A stretch of DNA of 43,239 nucleotides from Deltaproteobacteria bacterium HGW-Deltaproteobacteria-18 (GTDB lineage: Bacteria > Desulfobacterota > Desulfovibrionia > Desulfovibrionales > Desulfomicrobiaceae). Of this stretch, positions 1 through 39,488 are shown piece by piece (within the stretch, counting starts at the first letter, position 1; the number at the start of each line of letters is the position of its first letter). Made by a program: the position numbers and the translations under genes. The notes beneath the pieces are model-generated. The model was not told where the DNA came from. It saw only the letters and a list, made by a program, of their open reading frames with translations, and searched no databases. The stretch is taken from the NCBI GenBank assembly GCA_002841885.1, contig PHBE01000025.1, positions 1 to 43,239 of the forward strand. The letters are read 5' to 3'.

Positions 1-159
1 GCTGTCGCCGGTTCATCCCCACAGGCGTGGGGAACGGTAGAATGGAGCAGCGAGAAGATATTTCAGACGCGGTTCATCCCCACAGGCGTGGGGAACGGTC
101 CGAACAGACTGATGCGGCAAAGGCCATGGGCGGTTCATCCCCACAGGCGTGGGGAACGG
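1..159 (-). CRISPR. Type I-E CRISPR array, leader-proximal end (partial)
   Basis: Three identical 29-nt repeats lie at 9-37, 70-98 and 131-159, separated by two 32-nt spacers (38-69 and 99-130). A further spacer is cut by the window edge (1-8). The repeat has the type I-E form with a CCCCAC/GTGGGG stem, and its usual crRNA sense (starting GTTCCCCACGCC, ending GATGAACCG) is on the minus strand, the same strand as the cas genes. The repeat at 131-159 is therefore leader-proximal, and older spacers lie off the left edge. Neither complete spacer has an evident match elsewhere in this window. Total array length is unknown. Confidence 0.97.
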
Positions 160-208
160 ACTAAATAAAACCCTTTGAAACTATTCATTTTTCAAAGAGC
201 CCTCAAGA
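160..208 (-). promoter_or_regulatory. Putative CRISPR leader
   Basis: This AT-rich stretch of about 49 nt separates the end of cas2 from the first repeat. The leader of a type I-E array, where Cas1-Cas2 integrates new spacers, normally sits here. It is short, so the functional leader may extend into the 3' end of cas2. No clear promoter box is identified in it. Confidence 0.55.
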
Positions 209-1433
<1,225 letters not shown>

Positions 1434-1453: not shown

Positions 1454-2131
1454 TTAAACGTTTTCAGTTCGTTGGATTAGCCAAACTCTTCTGGGGGCAA
1501 ACCGCCGGGCACTGGATTCAAAACTCAAGGCCTTGTCCGGCAGACTGTCCCGACCATCCGCAAAGTCTGAGACATCCTGCTGCCGCGTAAAGGACGACAG
1601 CGTCCTTTTGCCGACCAGAGCCTGTACGGCCTTGTCCTGCGTATTGAACAGTCCGACCAGCACCGGGGCAGACGGAATGCACGTCTTGCGCCCCAACCAG
1701 ATACCCCACACCGGATCGGCCAGAGCCTGCGTCAGTGGTTTCAGAAACGCATTGTCGCCTTCGAGCAATACGCCGAAAGAGGCGTCGAGGAGATAAACGC
1801 GTTGGGTAATGTGACAATCCTTATTCTTGCCGTCAGCGGTGCGGGTGTTCTGCACCGTATGATAGTCCGTCAAACGCCGAACCGGAATTTCCTGAGTGTG
1901 ACGTTCACGGGGGATGGCAAATGCGGTCATGGCCAGTATATTGAATGACTCCAGAAAGACTTGTTCCGCAACACTTCCACGGACATGCCCCATGGCCGCG
2001 CAGCACATTCCGGCGATACCACTTTTGGTCGGGATAAGCCCTGTGTCCCGACGATTGTATTGGCTGTGGCAACCCCACGACTGCAACGGCCCTTCCAAGC
2101 GCAAAGCCAATACACCGATGTCAACGGACAT
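1454..2131 (-). CDS. cas5e: Cas5e, Cascade subunit capping the crRNA 5' handle
   Basis: This 225-residue Cas5e/CasD protein has the family's N-terminal signature (LALRLEGPLQSWG) and the conserved PTKSGIAGM segment, followed by the IPRERHTQEIPVRRLTDYHTVQNTR region. In type I-E Cascade, Cas5 binds the 5' handle of the crRNA and contacts Cas8e and the first Cas7. Its start lies inside the last codons of cas7e (11-nt overlap), so the two are probably translationally coupled. The length is normal and no lesion is seen. Confidence 0.93.
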   Translation of the reverse strand: MSVDIGVLALRLEGPLQSWGCHSQYNRRDTGLIPTKSGIAGMCCAAMGHVRGSVAEQVFLESFNILAMTAFAIPRERHTQEIPVRRLTDYHTVQNTRTADGKNKDCHITQRVYLLDASFGVLLEGDNAFLKPLTQALADPVWGIWLGRKTCIPSAPVLVGLFNTQDKAVQALVGKRTLSSFTRQQDVSDFADGRDSLPDKALSFESSARRFAPRRVWLIQRTENV

Positions 2132-3350
2132 GTGACACCATCCTGTTCAGGAAATCCGGCATGGTTGTCGCAGGGATTACAATGTGCTCAACCGACTCGA
2201 TGCCCCAGATGCTCTGTAACTTGTCGTACTCGGTCTGCAGCGCTTGTACGGATTTTTCGACGTACCCCTGCCCCGGCCGAATCGGCATTTCAAAGGCGTT
2301 GACCAATTGAACGGGATGCCCTTTTTCGCGGACAACTCCCATAACGTAGGCGGGCAGAGTGTTTGCGTTCATGGTATTTTTTCGGGCAGACGGCACGGCC
2401 TTGATGGTCGCTTCAAGAAATGTCCGGACAACGGATTGGCGTTCTTCCACAGACATGCAACCCAGATGACCCGAGTCCTCCAGCATGTCGAGGTTCAAAG
2501 CCGCAAAGCGGTAGTACGTCGCGGAGTTGAATTCGAGGGTGCTGGTCATGCCTGCTCCAGCGTCTTCCTTGGGTTGCAGATCGTCCACAGCGGCAAAGAA
2601 ATCGATCTCGTTATCGGCCTTGTGCGTGGACAGTGCGTGCGAGAACATGCCCGCCGCTTCCACGGTCAGGGAATGGTCACTGGCGACCATGCGGCCAAAG
2701 ATGGCAATATCGGCGGCATCTTTCACTAATCCCTCAGCATTTTTACGCTCAGCCTTAAAAGCCTTTTGAATTTGTGATTTTAGCACTTTTCCAATGCGCT
2801 TGGAGAACTCCTTTGGCGTTATCTTTTTTTCTCCACTTTTCTTCTTAGGCTTTTCATCCGGTTCATTGTCGTCATCGCTATCGTCATCGTCATCACTGCC
2901 AAGTTTTGAAATATCAACAGCTGCAAAAGCATCCCGAAGCACCTTTTTGTCTTTTTCTTCAAGTGATTCTAAAATTGTTGCGAAGATTTTATATTCAGAT
3001 GGAGAAAGAAATATAAGTGTTTTAACTTTTCCTTCCTGTTTAGGATCTAATTTTGCGAGATAATGACCAGCGCATGAGGCAAATATTTTTGCATCCTCGG
3101 GATTCACGTCGAGTTCAAGTAGAGATTGAATAATTTTGCTGACAAACAGACGACTTCTAATTCCTTTGAAGGCCTGATTATCATCAAGTTCCTTTGCGGC
3201 CATTTCCCGAATAGCGCGTTTCCAGGACTGGCTGGAAACACGGGCACGCTGCACGCCTCCGAAAATGGCGGTTTTGGGAGAATTGAGATCGTCACGGTTG
3301 AGGCAAGCTACGGGAACGGACTGAATGATGTGCAATTCCAGATGTCTCAT
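2121..3350 (-). CDS. cas7e: Cas7e, Cascade backbone subunit with a charged insert
   Basis: This 409-residue Cas7e/CasC protein begins with the family motif LELHIIQSVPVACLNRDD and contains KTAIFGGVQRARVSSQSWKR, typical of the crRNA-binding palm. Six copies form the Cascade backbone in known type I-E complexes. It is longer than E. coli Cas7 (363 aa), largely because of an insert at about residues 150-178 with a run of nine Asp/Ser residues followed by a Lys-rich stretch. The insert is encoded by a low-complexity GTCATC-type tract near 2868-2905. The ATG at 3350 has a good AGGAGA ribosome site, and cas6e ends 22 nt upstream. Confidence 0.93.
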   Translation of the reverse strand: MRHLELHIIQSVPVACLNRDDLNSPKTAIFGGVQRARVSSQSWKRAIREMAAKELDDNQAFKGIRSRLFVSKIIQSLLELDVNPEDAKIFASCAGHYLAKLDPKQEGKVKTLIFLSPSEYKIFATILESLEEKDKKVLRDAFAAVDISKLGSDDDDDSDDDNEPDEKPKKKSGEKKITPKEFSKRIGKVLKSQIQKAFKAERKNAEGLVKDAADIAIFGRMVASDHSLTVEAAGMFSHALSTHKADNEIDFFAAVDDLQPKEDAGAGMTSTLEFNSATYYRFAALNLDMLEDSGHLGCMSVEERQSVVRTFLEATIKAVPSARKNTMNANTLPAYVMGVVREKGHPVQLVNAFEMPIRPGQGYVEKSVQALQTEYDKLQSIWGIESVEHIVIPATTMPDFLNRMVSHVR

Positions 3351-3372: not shown

Positions 3373-4035
3373 TTAATTGGCCAGAGGCGCGAGCAGGAAG
3401 AGCCCAAAGCCAAAGCTTTTGGCGCTACCCAGGCCGTGCTGATAGGTTGCGATGAAATCCTGTGTGTCTATCACTTCGAGCGTACCGCGAAATCGCACAC
3501 CTCCGTGCATTCCAGCATGCCCCGGTTTGCGGAAAAACTGCTCTACCATCGGACTTATTTCGAGTGGACGATCCGTAATCAGCCGAAATCCACCGCTGAC
3601 AGATACTCCCTGGGCATCAAGGCAGCGTTCCGCCCCCTTACGTTCGAGCCAGGCACGCAGTTCGTCTTCCTTGACCAAAGCGACCCGTTTGCCCTGACGC
3701 AGGCAGCGTCCATCTTCGCCTTTGACAGACAGTTTCTTGGTGGGGTTGGCCACAAGATCGAACGCATAGCGTTTGTGCTCAAAAAATGAGGAAGCGATAC
3801 GCTTGAACGCAAAGCCTTCGGGCGGGCACCATGACGGACAGATAGGCTTGCGGAGCGAGGCCATCCAAAGCACCATGAGCGTTTCCTGCTGATCGACACG
3901 AGTCAGAAAATCTCGCAGTGCATCGGAATTATCTGGAAAGCACTCCCACAAGCGTTGATGCCAGTCGTAATTGTCCCAGATTTTATGTGTTCGCCTCAGA
4001 TCAGCGTGGATCTCCATACGGGTTAGCCAGTTCAT
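3373..4035 (-). CDS. cas6e: Cas6e, crRNA-processing endoribonuclease
   Basis: This 220-residue Cas6e/CasE cleaves the pre-crRNA in each repeat and stays bound to the 3' hairpin. The N-terminal segment YDWHQRLWECFPD aligns with the E. coli catalytic region, placing the general-base His at residue 26 and a Tyr at 23. The C-terminal glycine-rich loop GLGSAKSFGFGLFLLAPL is diagnostic. The ATG at 4035 was chosen over a longer in-frame start at 4113 because it forms a 4-nt ATGA overlap with the stop of cse2 and begins at the family N-terminus. The gene sits between cse2 and cas7e, unlike the E. coli order in which it follows cas5e. Confidence 0.92.
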   Translation of the reverse strand: MNWLTRMEIHADLRRTHKIWDNYDWHQRLWECFPDNSDALRDFLTRVDQQETLMVLWMASLRKPICPSWCPPEGFAFKRIASSFFEHKRYAFDLVANPTKKLSVKGEDGRCLRQGKRVALVKEDELRAWLERKGAERCLDAQGVSVSGGFRLITDRPLEISPMVEQFFRKPGHAGMHGGVRFRGTLEVIDTQDFIATYQHGLGSAKSFGFGLFLLAPLAN

Positions 4036-4520
4036 GCGTCCCCCCCCTCGGTTTTCTCCGCGTCGGGATTCCAGAAGGAGCTTGCCCACGCGGTTTTGAC
4101 CCGTTCGTTCCAAAACCGCAGATCTGTCTGCAACTGTCCGTAATTGACGGATAATCCTTCGGCCTTGGCCATCAGGACCAGACGCAATACGCGATCCAGG
4201 ACTTCGTCCCCACTGGCCGCCAGAACATGCTGAAAACGGCGTTCCGTGGGTGTAAGCTTGGCATCTTTGCTTTTGGGGGGATCACGCCGCAATTCGATCC
4301 GCCGACACAGATTGCCAAAGTTTCCCACGTCCGTGACCTCCGGATGCGCTGCGAAAAGCCCGGCCACAAAAACATCGACTTCGTTATCGATCTTCACCCC
4401 AAGACGATTCAGGGCGGGCCAAGCTCGATGCCGTTTTCCGGCAATGAGGGCACAGCGCAGGTTGGCCATGAGGCCGCGATCATCCTTGCTGCCAAGGAGT
4501 CGTTCAATTAACGTCTTCAT
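4032..4520 (-). CDS. cse2: Cse2 (Cas11e), Cascade small subunit
   Basis: This 162-residue mostly helical protein lies between cas8e and cas6e. It fits Cse2/CasB by length, position and the motifs LRCALIAGKRHRAWPALNRLG and ELRRDPPKSK. Two Cse2 copies normally form the belly of Cascade and contact the non-target strand. The start overlaps the stop of cas8e by 4 nt (ATGA), and its own stop overlaps the cas6e start in the same way, so the three genes are tightly coupled. Confidence 0.87.
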   Translation of the reverse strand: MKTLIERLLGSKDDRGLMANLRCALIAGKRHRAWPALNRLGVKIDNEVDVFVAGLFAAHPEVTDVGNFGNLCRRIELRRDPPKSKDAKLTPTERRFQHVLAASGDEVLDRVLRLVLMAKAEGLSVNYGQLQTDLRFWNERVKTAWASSFWNPDAEKTEGGDA

Positions 4521-6097
4521 TCTTGCTCCTCCTGATTGGAATTACCTGCTTCCACTTCTCCAACCCCATCTTGCCGGATGGTCAGTTTCTTCCAGCCTTT
4601 GGCAAAGGCACGCATTTTCCGAGACGTATCCTGGGAACAGGCAAGTCCATACGCTTCACGGGCCGAGGCATAGAGCATGGATCGCCATGCTTTCTGTAAA
4701 TTCGCGAACGCATCGCTTCCCAGCGCCCCAACGGCATTCATGAGCAGATCGAGATGTTGTTCAACTGCGGTCCAATAATGAGTTGTCGCAATGCTGTGGA
4801 GTCGGGCTTTGAGTTGACCTTTGGATGGCCCAACCATTTTCAAACGACCTTCCCAGCCACCGTCTATTTCCAAACGATAGGTTTCAACAGCCCAGCCCAG
4901 TTTTCCGGAGATAATTTCTGCTAGATGAACACTATTTTCGTATGTGTTGAGACCAGCCTCTGAATTCATGTTTTCAGGGATGTGGTACACCGATTCGATG
5001 GTATTCAGAATTGTCGCCTGATCACGGCCCAGAGCGCAAACACACAAGTCTGAGGCGACCTCTCGCCCAAGTCGCTCAAGCATCAACGGGCCCCTCGCAC
5101 CTTTTTGTGTCCTCTGTCTGGTCATTACGGCAGCCAAATCACGCCAAATGGCGCGGCCAGGACGATAAGCAAGCAGGGCACGCTCCTCTTTCTTCTGATT
5201 TTTGCGCAGAACAACGGTGGCAGATGGCTCCGGATGAAATCCATCCGTAAATTGCGGATACGGCAATCCATCGCCCATCAACATGTATTGCCCATCTGAC
5301 TTAAGTTTGATGAAGCGAGACATGGGAACCAAGCGCCCGAGATACGTTTGGGTAGCGTTAGAAACAGCGCTGGAATCGTCCATTTTGAAGGGCATTTTCT
5401 CCCATACAGGACAGCCCTTGGCATATCCAGCGCAGTACATTGCGATATCTTCATCTGAAAGAAGGTTTAGATACAGCGTCTCGCTAATATTTTTTCCGCG
5501 CAAAAAGGCGTGTATCATTGAGGACGGAACACAAGGAGAATCTTTAGACGATTTGCTGGTTTTATGCTTGTCCCAATAAACTTGAGAGATGAGACCTCCA
5601 GGGGAAAAACACTGAAAAGAGACCATCCCTACGACAACGTCTGAAAGGTTAATGTTTCGGTCTGTATTCATCCCCTCGTGGTCGAACAGGGTGGTGTTAT
5701 TTCCCGTGGCATTTTCAAAGATGAGTTTCGATACTGGTGTTAGATCCGAAATGTCGGAACTCACTTTGCCATCCTCGGTCTTTGATAGCCCGGCAACCTG
5801 CAGCCACGGCTTTTCCGGATGAAATAATTCAAACGAATCCTTCCAGGTCTTCAAGTAGTTGTCAGCGGCCTCAGGTAAGTGTTCCGGTGCCTGCTCCCAC
5901 TCGTCATAATTTTTGGGGCCATTAAGGGCCGCATGGCTGGCACACAGCATAAGGCGCATCAGGGCCACGCGTTCATGGGGCCGGACAGCCAGATCCGCAT
6001 AATCCTCGCCGTGCGTCAACGCATCGTGCAGGCTGATGCGAGCACTAGCACCATCGAGAGCGATCACCGGCATCCAGGGGTCAAAGGCAATATTCAT
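4517..6097 (-). CDS. cas8e: Cas8e (Cse1/CasA), Cascade large subunit for PAM recognition
   Basis: This 526-residue protein fits Cse1/CasA in length, position and the N-terminal pattern FDPWMPV. Further conserved stretches include NATGNNTTLFDHEG and FSPGGLISQ. The large subunit recognises the PAM, stabilises the R-loop and recruits Cas3. The C-terminal part (about residues 400-520) is predicted helical, like the four-helix bundle of the family. The ATG at 6097 has a strong GGAGG site 5-6 nt upstream and lies 12 nt after the cas3 stop. No lesion is seen. Confidence 0.92.
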   Translation of the reverse strand: MNIAFDPWMPVIALDGASARISLHDALTHGEDYADLAVRPHERVALMRLMLCASHAALNGPKNYDEWEQAPEHLPEAADNYLKTWKDSFELFHPEKPWLQVAGLSKTEDGKVSSDISDLTPVSKLIFENATGNNTTLFDHEGMNTDRNINLSDVVVGMVSFQCFSPGGLISQVYWDKHKTSKSSKDSPCVPSSMIHAFLRGKNISETLYLNLLSDEDIAMYCAGYAKGCPVWEKMPFKMDDSSAVSNATQTYLGRLVPMSRFIKLKSDGQYMLMGDGLPYPQFTDGFHPEPSATVVLRKNQKKEERALLAYRPGRAIWRDLAAVMTRQRTQKGARGPLMLERLGREVASDLCVCALGRDQATILNTIESVYHIPENMNSEAGLNTYENSVHLAEIISGKLGWAVETYRLEIDGGWEGRLKMVGPSKGQLKARLHSIATTHYWTAVEQHLDLLMNAVGALGSDAFANLQKAWRSMLYASAREAYGLACSQDTSRKMRAFAKGWKKLTIRQDGVGEVEAGNSNQEEQE

Positions 6098-6109: not shown

Positions 6110-8587
6110 TCAGGATGAACGATCAATGACGAGACCAAGGGAATCCATATAAAATAGCCGGTTTCCGGACTGCAGACCTTTGATTGAAACACTTCCCGCC
6201 GCATCAACCACGCCAACGATAAAGCGTCCTCGTACATACATGTTGAACAGGGTTTCGCCCGGTTCCTGGCCGTACGAGATCAGGTATTCCGGAACCTTGA
6301 CTAGGTTGCGGTGAATAGCGCGGGCTGCGGCCAGAGAAAAATCCTGACCCCGTGCCAAGATGACTTCGCCACTCAACAGGACGCTCTGTGACGAACTGTG
6401 TTCGGAGCACAAAATAAGGGAGATAGTCGGCATTTCGTTGAGTCGCGTCTGGACGCCCTCTTCATCCGGCAGTGCCACCGTCCAGTAATTGGCGTTCTGT
6501 TGAGCGATCATTTTCTTTGCAGAATCCGAGGCAAACCATTCTCCATACAGCGCAGACCACGACTCCGGCTCATTTTCACTCTCTGCATACGTCGCTTCCA
6601 GCAGCGCTCTGATCTGGCGAGGGATTTCCACCTGCTCATGCGTTTTCCACACTTCAAGACTACGAAGCAGTACATACGGAGCATAAACTTTGGCTTTTGC
6701 ACCCAGTTCCTTGATGATGGCGGCAGGCTTCATGGTTCGAAATGCCTCCAGGGAGGACGCTTCCTCCACGATCATTACAACAGGTTCGTAGGCTGGCCTA
6801 CCCGAACGCTGATGCCTCCAGAGCCGCCCGATGCGTTGCAGCAGCATGTCTGTCGGTGCAAGTTCGGTCACGAGCAGATCCGCATCGAGATCCACACTTT
6901 GCTCCACCACCTGAGTGGCCACGAGAATGGAGCCACAGCGTGATCCGTTTTTTCCAAAGCGTTCCATCCATTCCTGCTCCAATGCTTCGCGTCGGGGAAA
7001 GGTAAAGCGGGAATGTAGCAGGCCGATGGGAAAGGCTTCGCCGCATCGCTCTGACAATTCGCGGAAAATGTGTTGTGCGCTATCCACGGTATTGCAGATC
7101 CAGAGCACTGCGCCACCGCGTTGCGCCATATCTTTCGCACGGCTCATGGCATCGTCAGCCGTGGAGAAGCAGGTTCGGATCTGCCGCCCTTGCGGCGGGG
7201 TGATGAAAACAGTCACCAGCAACTGGTCCCGACGTTTAGCGGTCAATGTGGCGGAAAGAATGATGACCGTGCAGCCCAATCCTTCCAGTGTCTTAATCAG
7301 CTTGTCGATGAGTGTGCCGGTGTAAAGATCGTAGGAATGGATTTCGTCCAGAATGACCACTTTTCCTGCCAGCGCAAAGTGACGGACAAAGAAATGCTTG
7401 GCCGCGACCACACCCAACAGACACTGATCCACCGTGCCGACACCAAACGGAGCCAGCAGGGCGCGTTTAGTCGATGCGAACCAGTCTTGGCTGGCGCGAG
7501 CGTCATCCTCTGCGGCCCCGTGAACAGTCGTGGCTGGAGTTTTGGGAACGTCACTCCCCTCCAACAGCCAGGAATTGCCATGCACGAGTCTTGATGCTGA
7601 AGCATTATCCGTGATTCGATCCAGGAATTCATTCATGCGCAGATGAATACGATTACTCGTGGCCTGCGTGGGCAGAGCGAAATACACGCCGGACGCATAC
7701 CCGGAGCACAGCAGATGATATGCGGCCCACAAGGCGGCCTCAGTCTTGCCCATGCCCATAGGCGCTTCAATGATATAGACGCCTGGCGTAGTAATGATTG
7801 CTGCGGCACGTTCCTGCAATTCATTGGGTGAAAAAGGAAAAATGCACTCAAAAGACAAATCGGCCGTTATCCTGGGGTGGTGAAAACCGATGTGTTCCAG
7901 GGCGGCTTGAGCGCTCATGCCCTTGAATTCGGACATTTCTTTGTCTGGAGGGAAGAAGCGTTCATCCGATCCGATCCAGTCCGCCACGGAAGTCAGGCCA
8001 CCGAGCCACCACAATCCGGATTCCGAAACCGTCAGCGCGGAAAAATCCATCATCGCTCCAAAATGAGACCAAACCTTACGGACAGTGTGGAATCGCAGTT
8101 CGTTCCATGCAATGCCGCTGGCGGATTCCGACATGACGCAGGAAATGCCGCGATCACTCGGAAGAGCTTTGATTCGTCCATGATGCGCGCCGAGAATAGC
8201 CGAGATATACTTGGCCGTTTTCCGACTGACGCCCAGTTCCATGAGCGCCTGCTGAATAGACGCATGCGAGACGCGACCGTGATCAGTCTCCACAGAGGTC
8301 TGCCAAGAGTTGTGTTCTGCAATGGCTGACATTGCAAACCGCTCAAGCCAAGCCGGACATTTCTGTTGAAACCCCGGAGAAATTTTTCCCAGATCATGCA
8401 GGGCTGCCAAAGCAGCGACGATTTCAGGTGACAGGTTCAGTCGTTGACATAACTGCGGTGACAAGTCGGCGAGCAACCGAGCCACATGGCCGACATTCAG
8501 CATATGCTCCGTAACGGAAATCCCCAGTTGCCCTTCGGCAGTGGTTTTGGCCCAAAAGTAGATGTCGTTACTGACAGCCGGTGTCAT
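6110..8587 (-). CDS. cas3: Cas3, HD nuclease-helicase of type I-E
   Basis: This 825-residue protein combines an N-terminal HD nuclease with a superfamily 2 helicase. In order: His28, the HD pair His64-Asp65 in ALHDLGK, GAHHGRIK near 135, SVADWIGSDE near 203, Walker A APMGMGKT ending at about 282, DEIH box near 414-417, LSATL, and the motif VI region QRIGRLWRH. Cas3 is recruited by R-loop-bound Cascade and degrades the target DNA. The ATG at 8587 was chosen because it overlaps the stop of the upstream WYL gene as ATGA; the longer in-frame extension is low-complexity. All catalytic motifs are present, so it should be active. Confidence 0.95.
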   Translation of the reverse strand: MTPAVSNDIYFWAKTTAEGQLGISVTEHMLNVGHVARLLADLSPQLCQRLNLSPEIVAALAALHDLGKISPGFQQKCPAWLERFAMSAIAEHNSWQTSVETDHGRVSHASIQQALMELGVSRKTAKYISAILGAHHGRIKALPSDRGISCVMSESASGIAWNELRFHTVRKVWSHFGAMMDFSALTVSESGLWWLGGLTSVADWIGSDERFFPPDKEMSEFKGMSAQAALEHIGFHHPRITADLSFECIFPFSPNELQERAAAIITTPGVYIIEAPMGMGKTEAALWAAYHLLCSGYASGVYFALPTQATSNRIHLRMNEFLDRITDNASASRLVHGNSWLLEGSDVPKTPATTVHGAAEDDARASQDWFASTKRALLAPFGVGTVDQCLLGVVAAKHFFVRHFALAGKVVILDEIHSYDLYTGTLIDKLIKTLEGLGCTVIILSATLTAKRRDQLLVTVFITPPQGRQIRTCFSTADDAMSRAKDMAQRGGAVLWICNTVDSAQHIFRELSERCGEAFPIGLLHSRFTFPRREALEQEWMERFGKNGSRCGSILVATQVVEQSVDLDADLLVTELAPTDMLLQRIGRLWRHQRSGRPAYEPVVMIVEEASSLEAFRTMKPAAIIKELGAKAKVYAPYVLLRSLEVWKTHEQVEIPRQIRALLEATYAESENEPESWSALYGEWFASDSAKKMIAQQNANYWTVALPDEEGVQTRLNEMPTISLILCSEHSSSQSVLLSGEVILARGQDFSLAAARAIHRNLVKVPEYLISYGQEPGETLFNMYVRGRFIVGVVDAAGSVSIKGLQSGNRLFYMDSLGLVIDRSS

Positions 8588-9567
8588 CCTTCCACCCTCA
8601 TCCCATACATCCTCGCCATAACTTTCACCTTCACGATCGCCTCCTCCCTCAGCCACTGCGGCTCCAGCACTTCAAAATCCCCGCCCCAGCGCATGGCCCA
8701 CCACAGCACCTCTCTGGGTTCGGTCACCTCAACCTCGAAGGCCAGGGAACCGTCGGGGTGTTCCGTGAGCCTTTGGCTCGGGCTGTGGTATCCTTCCCGG
8801 ATGTAGGGCGCGGCGAATGGTGAAAACCAGACGCGCACCGCTTCAGGCTCCTTGTCTGTGGCGAACACGCAGAATGAGTTATGACGCCGTTCCTCATAGA
8901 TGTAGCCGCGCTCGTTCGTAAAAACTATCTCCGTAGGCCAGACATACTGAATCCGGCAGACCTTAAAACAGCGCACCGCTTTTCGTCCCCAGTGATACCC
9001 GTCCATGTAGAGAGACCCCTCAAGGACATAAAGCTGGTACGGGTCGATCTCGAATGTCTCTGGTTCGGCATGGGGCTTGTGATAGGTGATCCGGACCCTG
9101 CGCCGCTCCGTGATGGCATTGAAGAGGCCGTCGACGACTGACTCTTTTCCTCCGACATGCGCGGGCATTTCAGGTCCCTGGAGCAGGGCTGCGCAGGCCA
9201 CGGCAAGAGGGGCCTGATTCACTGCCAGGAGTTTGGCCGCTGCCTTGCGGGCCCGCGAGGCCAAGAAGGATTCCTGTAGTCCGCCGAGCCTGCCAACAGC
9301 CAGTACGATGGCCAGGCGCTCATCCAGCGCGAGATCCGGGGCGGTCAGGAAGGCGTCTTTTTCGATGACATGCCGACGAGCCTTCCTGTCGAAACGGAAT
9401 TCTACGCCCAAGCTTTTGAGCAGACTGCAGTACCGACCATAGGCCGACTTCTCGACTCCGAGTTCCTGCCGGATTTCCTTGGGCGATTTGTCCGGGGACG
9501 CCTTGATGGCCATGTAGAGATGGAGAATGCGCTCCAACTTTGTTGAATCATAACTCCTTGTTCCCAT
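8584..9567 (-). CDS. WYL-domain transcriptional regulator of the cas operon
   Basis: This protein of 327 residues has an N-terminal helix-turn-helix (SYDSTKLERILHLYMAI ... SPKEIRQELGVEKSAYGRYCSLLKSLG) and a C-terminal WYL-type domain. The WYL domain shows ITYHKPHAEPETFEIDPYQLYVLEGSLYMDGYH and the trailing RREVLWW-like segment (REVLWWAMRWG). WYL proteins are ligand-responsive regulators, often found beside CRISPR and phage-defence genes. The ATG at 9567 has GGAGGG about 8 nt upstream and was preferred to a longer frame beginning at 9702. Its stop overlaps the cas3 start by 4 nt, so it is cotranscribed with the whole cas operon and probably autoregulates it. A perfect palindrome lies 44 nt upstream of the start. 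Confidence 0.88.
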   Translation of the reverse strand: MGTRSYDSTKLERILHLYMAIKASPDKSPKEIRQELGVEKSAYGRYCSLLKSLGVEFRFDRKARRHVIEKDAFLTAPDLALDERLAIVLAVGRLGGLQESFLASRARKAAAKLLAVNQAPLAVACAALLQGPEMPAHVGGKESVVDGLFNAITERRRVRITYHKPHAEPETFEIDPYQLYVLEGSLYMDGYHWGRKAVRCFKVCRIQYVWPTEIVFTNERGYIYEERRHNSFCVFATDKEPEAVRVWFSPFAAPYIREGYHSPSQRLTEHPDGSLAFEVEVTEPREVLWWAMRWGGDFEVLEPQWLREEAIVKVKVMARMYGMRVEG

Positions 9568-9610: not shown

Positions 9611-9636
9611 GATCTTCCCCGGCAGTGGGGAAGATC
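9611..9636 (-). promoter_or_regulatory. Perfect palindrome upstream of the WYL-cas operon
   Basis: Two perfect 10-bp arms, gatcttcccc and ggggaagatc, flank a 6-nt centre. The element lies 44 bp upstream of the WYL start codon, between it and the preceding terminator at 9825-9859. It could be the operator of the dimeric WYL regulator or a hairpin in the 5' untranslated region. Its TTCCCCAC...GGGGA core also resembles the stem of the CRISPR repeat. Confidence 0.6.
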
Positions 9637-9713: not shown

Positions 9714-9794
9714 ATGTATGACGGAATACGTGCAATATTCCTGAAATTTAGTATTTCCTCAGTGAATGCGTATGATGCGACTTACTTTGTATGA
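9714..9794 (+). CDS. Possible 26-residue small protein, function unknown
   Basis: A 26-codon frame (MYDGIRAIFLKF... ending ATYFV) follows AAGGAGGA with 5-6 nt spacing, the only strong Shine-Dalgarno in this intergenic region. It is divergent from the WYL-cas operon. The peptide is mildly hydrophobic and has no recognisable motif. It may be a chance frame; conservation would decide. Confidence 0.25.
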   Translation: MYDGIRAIFLKFSISSVNAYDATYFV

Positions 9795-9824
9795 CATAAT
9801 TGAATTTTTAGTCCGAAATCGCAT

Positions 9825-9859
9825 AAAAAACTCCCTCACGTGTAGAGTGGCGCGAGGGA
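9825..9859 (-). terminator. Rho-independent terminator of the metallopeptidase gene
   Basis: Read on the minus strand, TCCCTCGCG pairs with CGTGAGGGA (8 of 9) around a 10-nt loop and is followed by G and six T. It lies about 90 nt beyond the stop of the ImmA/IrrE-like gene and insulates it from the cas operon. Confidence 0.8.
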
Positions 9860-24259: not shown

Positions 24260-24446
24260 AATGAATGTTGGAAGTCATGGATTGCCGCGTCGAAGACTCC
24301 TCGCAATGACGAGCTGCACAAACCGTCATTGCGAGCGAAGCGCGGCAATCCATCTTTTTTTCTGGATACGCAATGAATGTTGGAAGTCATGGATTGCCGC
24401 GTCGAGGACTCCTCGCAATGACGATTTATCCGACCAGTCATTGCAA
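24260..24446. repeat. REP-type palindromic repeats, two copies
   Basis: Copy one at 24277-24353 is a long imperfect palindrome starting GGATTGCCGCGTCG and ending CGCGGCAATCC with inner arms CTCGCAATGACG / CGTCATTGCGAG. Copy two starts at 24391 and has a degenerate right half. The segment from AATGAATGTTGGAAGTCATG onward is directly repeated at 24260 and 24372. The same family recurs at 39298-39488. Such repeats are common in intergenic regions of these bacteria. Confidence 0.85.
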
Positions 24447-24528
24447 GGCCGAACATCGTGATAATCAAGATTTAGCCTGAATTGAAATCAGTTCCAGATT
24501 CAAAAAAGTTGGCTCCTGCAACGTCTCA

Positions 24529-39220: not shown

Positions 39221-39297
39221 GTATTTCTCCAAGGAGAGTTTATTGTCACGGTTTCTCTATATTCGGAAAGATGGATTTCACGCAGAGCCTGACCTGC

Positions 39298-39488
39298 TGC
39301 GTCGAAGACTCCTCGCAATGACGGTTGAGTCATGACGTCATTGCGAGGCTGAAAGCCGTGGCAATCCATGTCTTTCCTGTCTTTTCTTTGCATTTGAAGA
39401 GGCGAAGATGGATTGCCGCGTCGAAGACTCCTCGCAATGACGGTTGAGCCATGGCGTCATTGCGAGGCTGAAAGCCGTGGCAATCCAT
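39298..39488. repeat. REP-type palindromic repeats, two copies
   Basis: The copies at 39298-39368 and 39408-39488 match the family at 24260-24446, with shared CTCCTCGCAATGACGG and GTCATTGCGAGG arms. The two copies are direct repeats of about 80 bp with few differences, running from GCGTCGAAGACTCC to CAATCCATGTCTTTCCTG. The left arm of the first is degenerate. They sit between the broken universal-stress-protein gene and the ferredoxin gene. Confidence 0.85.

Follow-up and report, generated by a model that had tools for sequence, protein, structure and literature searches.

A predicted WYL-regulator operator precedes CRISPR-Cas operons of several type I subtypes in Desulfomicrobium

To our knowledge, little is understood of what turns on most CRISPR-Cas operons. 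The available text of two papers already describes WYL regulators next to CRISPR loci, fusions of WYL with Cas3 (in PMC4012209) and inverted repeats in front of BrxR homologues (PMC4012209, PMC9122601). According to the accessible part of PMC9122601, BrxR of pEFER is a repressor with an 11-bp imperfect inverted repeat of 5-bp spacer, located between the predicted −10 element and brxR; inverted repeats lie upstream of 193 of 347 homologues, and CRISPR-Cas accounts for 21 of 210 BrxR-associated defence systems. Sll7009, an HTH-WYL negative regulator of the Synechocystis I-D locus, is reported as a repressor in the portions available of PMC4012209 and PMC9122601. The site of DriD, as given in the accessible portion of PMC12340889, is ATACGAC-N7-GTCGTAT and overlaps the −35 element, and SiwR of Mycobacterium smegmatis is described in excerpts of PMC10693628 as a WYL homodimer whose HTH binds a 19-bp imperfect palindrome.

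The window analysed here, a 43,239-nucleotide contig stretch from a Desulfomicrobium genome, contains a type I-E CRISPR-Cas locus headed by a WYL regulator gene. Its features are as follows.

9825 to 9858, minus strand: hairpin and T run (CCCTCGCG...CGTGAGGG...TTTTTT), identified by eye, likely the terminator of the upstream M78-peptidase gene
9611 to 9636, minus strand: palindromic predicted operator, GATCTTCCCC-ACTGCC-GGGGAAGATC in the minus-strand reading, with the core TCCCC-N6-GGGGA
8584 to 9567, minus strand: wyl, encoding a 327-aa wHTH-WYL-WCX transcriptional regulator (Pfam WYL 7.9e-17, WCX 3.5e-20)
6110 to 8587, minus strand: cas3 (HD and helicase), the first gene behind wyl
4517 to 6097, minus strand: cse1/casA (cas8e), type I-E
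4032 to 4520, minus strand: cse2/casB (cas11)
3373 to 4113, minus strand: cas6e/casE
2121 to 3350, minus strand: cas7 (CT1975-like)
1454 to 2131, minus strand: cas5
510 to 1433, minus strand: cas1
209 to 535, minus strand: cas2 (CT1978 type)
9 to 160, minus strand: start of the I-E array, three repeats (GTTCCCCACGCCTGTGGGGATGAACCG on the minus strand), the array being cut by the contig end

The minus-strand order is thus wyl, cas3, cse1, cse2, cas6e, cas7, cas5, cas1, cas2 and then the I-E array. The wyl stop and the cas3 start overlap by 4 bp (ATGA at 8587-8584), implying that the two genes are probably translated together. WYL-Cas3 fusions differ from this arrangement, as wyl of the window is a separate gene. 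The hairpin at 9825-9858 was missed by the terminator scan, since its loop exceeds the limit of the scan. Upstream of the leader lies a TGTCATACAA element (9787-9796, minus strand). The genome has 18 TGTCATACAW sites of this kind, as compared to two for the reversed-pattern control, and the element looks like the site of another regulator; TGTCATACA is present in 5 of 22 WYL upstream regions.

On the plus strand, the palindrome reads GATCTTCCCC at 9611-9620, GGCAGT at 9621-9626 and GGGGAAGATC at 9627-9636, and all ten of its pairs match. The wyl start codon occupies 9567-9565, which places the palindrome edge at 9611, 44 bp upstream. The original prediction of a perfect 10-bp inverted repeat at this distance from wyl is therefore borne out in sequence and position. 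Perfect inverted repeats with arms of at least 10 and loops of 3-10 occur at five distinct places in the window, and the arm pattern, allowing up to three mismatches, has the palindrome as its sole match in the 3.99-Mb genome. The palindrome is more than a chance feature.

The wyl product contains both the Pfam WYL and WCX domains above the cut-off, and with the wHTH it has the domain composition of a WYL regulator; the wHTH itself is seen in the structure model and its PDB matches alone, the model having a moderate mean pLDDT of 69. The best PDB fold match of the model is DriD (E 1.8e-15), and a PDB sequence search at E 0.01 returned nine matches, only PafBC, DriD and similar chains, with PafBC the best. 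BrxR and CapW chains were not among these nine matches. Membership of the BrxR/CapW subfamily was considered and rejected, as DriD and PafBC outrank BrxR and CapW by fold. The protein also matches two PADLOC models of CRISPR-associated WYL proteins, and positions 7-318 of a 1009-position Cas3c profile that looks like a WYL-Cas3 fusion.

Several described systems resemble this locus in part. BrxR and CapW, the WYL repressors of BREX and CBASS, are likewise wHTH-WYL regulators with an inverted repeat just upstream of their own gene, so far as the available sources describe them, but the window site has a 6-bp spacer and another half-site, and its cassette precedes several CRISPR subtypes. The DNA-damage WYL activators DriD and PafBC are the nearest PDB matches, PafBC by sequence and DriD by fold, yet their identity to the window protein is 17-20%, and the DriD site, in the text available, has a spacer of 7 and a different half-site. 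SiwR differs in that it activates DinB-like genes from a palindrome between −35 and −10 (excerpts of PMC10693628). Sll7009 is alike, by its available description, as an HTH-WYL regulator of a CRISPR locus, but belongs to another subtype and phylum.

In our proposal, the WYL regulator, whose gene starts 44 bp downstream, very probably binds the palindrome as a dimer and has it as its operator. Each TCCCC half-site would receive one recognition helix of a WYL homodimer; the two centres lie 11 bp apart, about one helical turn. Binding of the dimer would control transcription of wyl and, via the overlapping operon, of cas3, cse1, cse2, cas6e, cas7, cas5, cas1 and cas2. The most likely mode would be autorepression, the protein acting as a roadblock between the promoter and wyl, with release when the WYL domain binds a nucleic-acid ligand, presumably arising from infection or DNA damage. 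The original prediction had offered a WYL operator as one of two alternatives. This one is well supported by comparison of sequences, in that the predicted site accompanies close WYL homologues whatever the cas subtype, keeps its 6-bp spacer in distant homologues, and changes its half-sites with the recognition helix.

An order-level scan of 348 genomes at E 1e-25 revealed WYL homologues in 20. We used 20 longer stretches and 22 upstream regions, the latter from the 23 WYL matches minus L023, which was left out because it forms the latter half of the L024 gene. Five WYL-cas loci from Desulfomicrobium, the genus of the window, were compared. In G004, GATCTTCCCCACTGTCGGGGAAGATC precedes WYL and a I-C operon (Csd1, 1.7e-174, and Csd2 behind wyl). 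In G005:C48, a palindrome identical to that of the window precedes WYL and a I-F operon (Cas3f, Csy1, Csy4). GATCATCCCCACTGCCTGGGAAGAT precedes WYL and I-G genes in G002 (Csx17, Csb2, Cas3g), as well as WYL and I-C genes in G014, which is assigned to I-C since its stretch breaks off within a cas3 into which the alignment with G004 extends at 87%. The palindrome is perfect in three of the five loci, while two of the ten pairs are mismatched in G002 and three in G014. Outside the genus, Cas3g stands behind the WYL gene of G018, another genus of the same family, and the WYL genes of G704 and G381, from other families, precede Cas8b-like genes. Within Desulfomicrobium, a NERD-UvrD helicase gene follows wyl in G003 and G013, the helicase having been scanned in G013 only. 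Absence of the palindrome from other WYL-cas loci would have spoken against the original prediction, but this check favoured it, a site being present in six of the eight recognised, the window included; the G704 locus has a weak one (5/8 pairs), and no site was found upstream of the G381 gene. The WYL gene heading the I-F operon (G005:C48:7464-8439; L024, L034) is split in two frames near residue 143, as a broken gene or an assembly error.

The similarity between these loci has sharp limits. In six of the ten pairwise DNA comparisons, the similar block begins within 2 bases of the 5′ edge of the palindrome, and in nine it stops within about 30 bp of the wyl stop; in the tenth, G004 with G014, it continues into the common cas3. 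The blocks that begin further upstream are those of G000 with G005 (about −340) and of G004 with G014, G004 with G002 and G014 with G002 (about −1.5 kb). Part of the block-edge effect may be explained by the palindrome's own strength in local alignment. Over four aligned rows, with G005 omitted for its closeness to the window, the palindrome has an identity of 91%, as compared to 50-59% for its flanks and 76% for the initial 45 bases of wyl. The palindrome and wyl form one homologous DNA block, behind which operons of different subtypes have no DNA similarity. By eye, the I-C locus G014:C216 and the I-G locus G002:C13 both lie behind an acetate-kinase-like gene. The two resemble each other in DNA between about −1.5 kb and the end of wyl but not beyond, suggesting an exchange of cas operons at one site.

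A scan of genome contigs gave 26 pattern matches, which led to one locus, on the Desulfomicrobium MAG contig JANJWV010000198.1, the G014:C216 stretch. A phylum scan at 1e-40 found WYL in 23 of 395 genomes, longer stretches being examined for 6 of the 21 new loci; more distant homologues also precede I-B-like cas8b. The 15 more distant WYL loci L066-L080 have no common site upstream. Spread on plasmids was considered and rejected, as none of 72,556 plasmid records matched the WYL protein in a tblastn search at 1e-20.

A TCCnn-N6-nnGGA element with pairing arms is present in 14 of the 22 upstream regions, whereas 14 other spacer lengths gave one locus in all. When counted by protein clusters at 70% identity, the spacer-6 TCC/GGA site is found in 8 of 11, as compared to 25 of 1493 background 200-nt blocks, which themselves include true sites. 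The upstream regions of L011 and L012 lack it. With any 8-bp arms, spacer 6 is not favoured (mean best pairs 6.95 at spacer 6 and 6.91 at 8); nested repeats blur that scan, and only the TCC/GGA form singles out spacer 6. Among the outgroups, L082 (G505) has a spacer-6 repeat with the different half-site GTCTAC, L081 has a weak site, and L083, L084 and L085 have none upstream by the rule. The half-sites vary together with the recognition helix: SAYGRYC or STYGRYC pairs with C(T/A)TCCCC, RSQFYKDK/R with GTCCA(C/T), and KSTYNRDR/K with TCCCG or GCCCA, the sites of L007, L008, L015 and L020 having been chosen by eye for this table and for the pairing table. On the other hand, the loop is 92% conserved among the cas-linked relatives, which counts against a simple symmetric operator, as such a site needs no conserved loop.

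Alternatively, the palindrome could act in the transcript, as an intrinsic terminator or attenuator in the leader. The terminator scan flags its 11-pair stem with the tail GTTGTTTTGT on the minus strand (1 found, as compared to 0.4 in shuffles), and the predicted RNA hairpin is strong (−19.7 kcal/mol, z −4.2). However, the tail is a poor T run that, by eye, G004 and G014 lack; relative to shuffles, the stretch of G014 shows no gain in folding (z 0.02), and that of G002 only a moderate one (z −2.1). A GC-rich stem with a T run kept in relatives, as expected of an intrinsic terminator, was thus not found, and neither a fixed spacer nor half-sites that track the HTH are features of terminators. 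The first eight pairs of 18 distinct sites give 122 paired cells, 3 with G-T and 19 with other departures, a distribution that speaks against selection for an RNA hairpin. Overall, a terminator or attenuator is very improbable.

The same pairing departures, without a G-U preference, speak against the second alternative of the original prediction, a repeat-like element, here taken as a degenerate CRISPR repeat: Cas6e would bind or cleave its transcript, or the transcript would direct Cascade to the cas promoter, with autorepression as the result. CreR/CreA-type degenerate-repeat RNAs guide Cascade, and the present case is similar to them in having a repeat-like element near cas genes. The stretches said to be common to the minus strand of the palindrome and the array repeat are present, TTCCCCAC being 8 nt long, and both elements fold as hairpins. 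This 8-mer has a p of 0.019 among 20,000 same-letter shuffled palindromes, and the best ungapped likeness to the I-E repeat, over 16 positions, has a p of 0.020 (4,000 shuffles), as compared to 0.16 for the I-F and 0.82 for the I-C repeat. However, the I-F repeat of G005 contains an equally long 8-mer of the palindrome, CACTGCCG (p 0.016), while the I-C repeat of G004, a locus where the palindrome also occurs, has no more than 4 nt in common with it. Scanned without gaps, the 27-nt repeat matches the palindrome at 17/27 at best, on the plus strand; this score is reached at 10 of 86,426 positions, namely the palindrome, the three true repeats and six unrelated places. The likeness is therefore modest, with a slight excess for I-E, and together with these six places it makes a role related to Cas6e or Cascade unlikely.

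Neither the geometry nor the distribution is that of a repeat or a degenerate repeat. The repeat is TCCCC-N8-GGGGA, with a 7-bp stem and a 4-nt loop, while the palindrome has N6, an 11-bp stem and a 6-nt loop. In contrast to CreR/CreA-type systems, with which this geometry also disagrees, no guide-target match of at least 9 nt was found when the 44 nt downstream of the palindrome were compared with the 224 nt on its upstream side, in either orientation. Given that the same switch and site precede I-C and I-F operons with differing repeats, the likeness looks accidental. The repeat-like element for Cas6e or Cascade thus finds no support here, and we regard it as extremely improbable. The available part of one review (PMC10013973) yielded nothing on degenerate-repeat autorepression.

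If the palindrome is the WYL operator, the sign of its regulation is a separate question, for which we consider repression probable, though by no means assured, and activation the minor possibility. No clear sigma-70-like promoter was detected in the terminator and promoter scan of the window leader; the top candidate of a matrix scan is weak (score 4.7) and would place the operator centre at +11. In G018, a near-consensus TTGTCA-17-TATAAT lies upstream of the operator, whose centre is at about +45, a repressor-like place, and the top candidate in G003 and G013 puts it at +36. Candidates at L003-L006, L009, L022 and L024 are scattered and ambiguous. For the window, the short distance from operator to ATG and the examples of BrxR and Sll7009 make us favour repression.

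Alternatively, the operator might serve mainly in activation, as with DriD, the liganded WYL protein recruiting RNA polymerase to the wyl-cas promoter. The best fold match, DriD, is an activator in the accessible text of PMC12340889, as is SiwR, another WYL regulator with a palindrome, in that of PMC10693628. Furthermore, in a different family of the order, f6, the operator centre lies at −61, −64, −74, −62, −66 and −66 from the top promoter in six of the nine loci with a site, an activator-like place; such a promoter is a lower-ranked match in L013 and L020, and absent in L019. However, the gap of only 43 bp between the window operator and the ATG holds a conserved ribosome-binding-like sequence, seen by eye, and no convincing promoter, and the strong G018 promoter sits upstream of the operator. 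For the window, we therefore consider activation rather unlikely. The repressor-like place in G018 and the activator-like places in f6 suggest that the same operator family may serve in both.

Returning to the WYL operator as the preferred reading, we tentatively suggest, while giving it somewhat less than an even chance, that the operator and wyl form a cassette of about 1.05 kb that works as a reusable control unit before interchangeable I-E, I-C, I-F and I-G cas operons, the cas systems being exchanged behind a fixed switch, and that, in relatives, the predicted operator changed place, being downstream of the promoter where it represses and near −61 where it activates. The occurrence of one switch in front of four CRISPR subtypes suggests that regulation can be passed on independently of the immune machinery. 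WYL control of defence is itself of a known kind, and the interest lies in the reuse of one operator-regulator cassette across subtypes. A literature search, mostly of papers open without subscription, brought up no description of a single operator-wyl cassette in front of several subtypes, and nothing joining Desulfomicrobium, CRISPR and WYL. With a defined core, half-site rules and a cognate regulator, the predicted operator offers a direct test of CRISPR-Cas switching.

Two further observations concern other parts of these genomes. An operator-like site, GATCTTCCCA-N6-CGGGACGATC, occurs four times, each copy 2-11 kb away from WYL genes of a second group: G003:C1:1438280 (L047), G005:C28:32742 (L095), G005:C39:21825 (L096) and G013:C1:1797963 (L055). 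In G003 and G013, it lies upstream of a gene for a 731/732-aa AAA+ ATPase, partly IetA-like, the G003 copy being beside abiE; these sites may mark a wider WYL regulon. In the window itself, dispersed repeats of about 76 nt with GTCATTGCGAG are located at 24260-24447 and 39272-39466.
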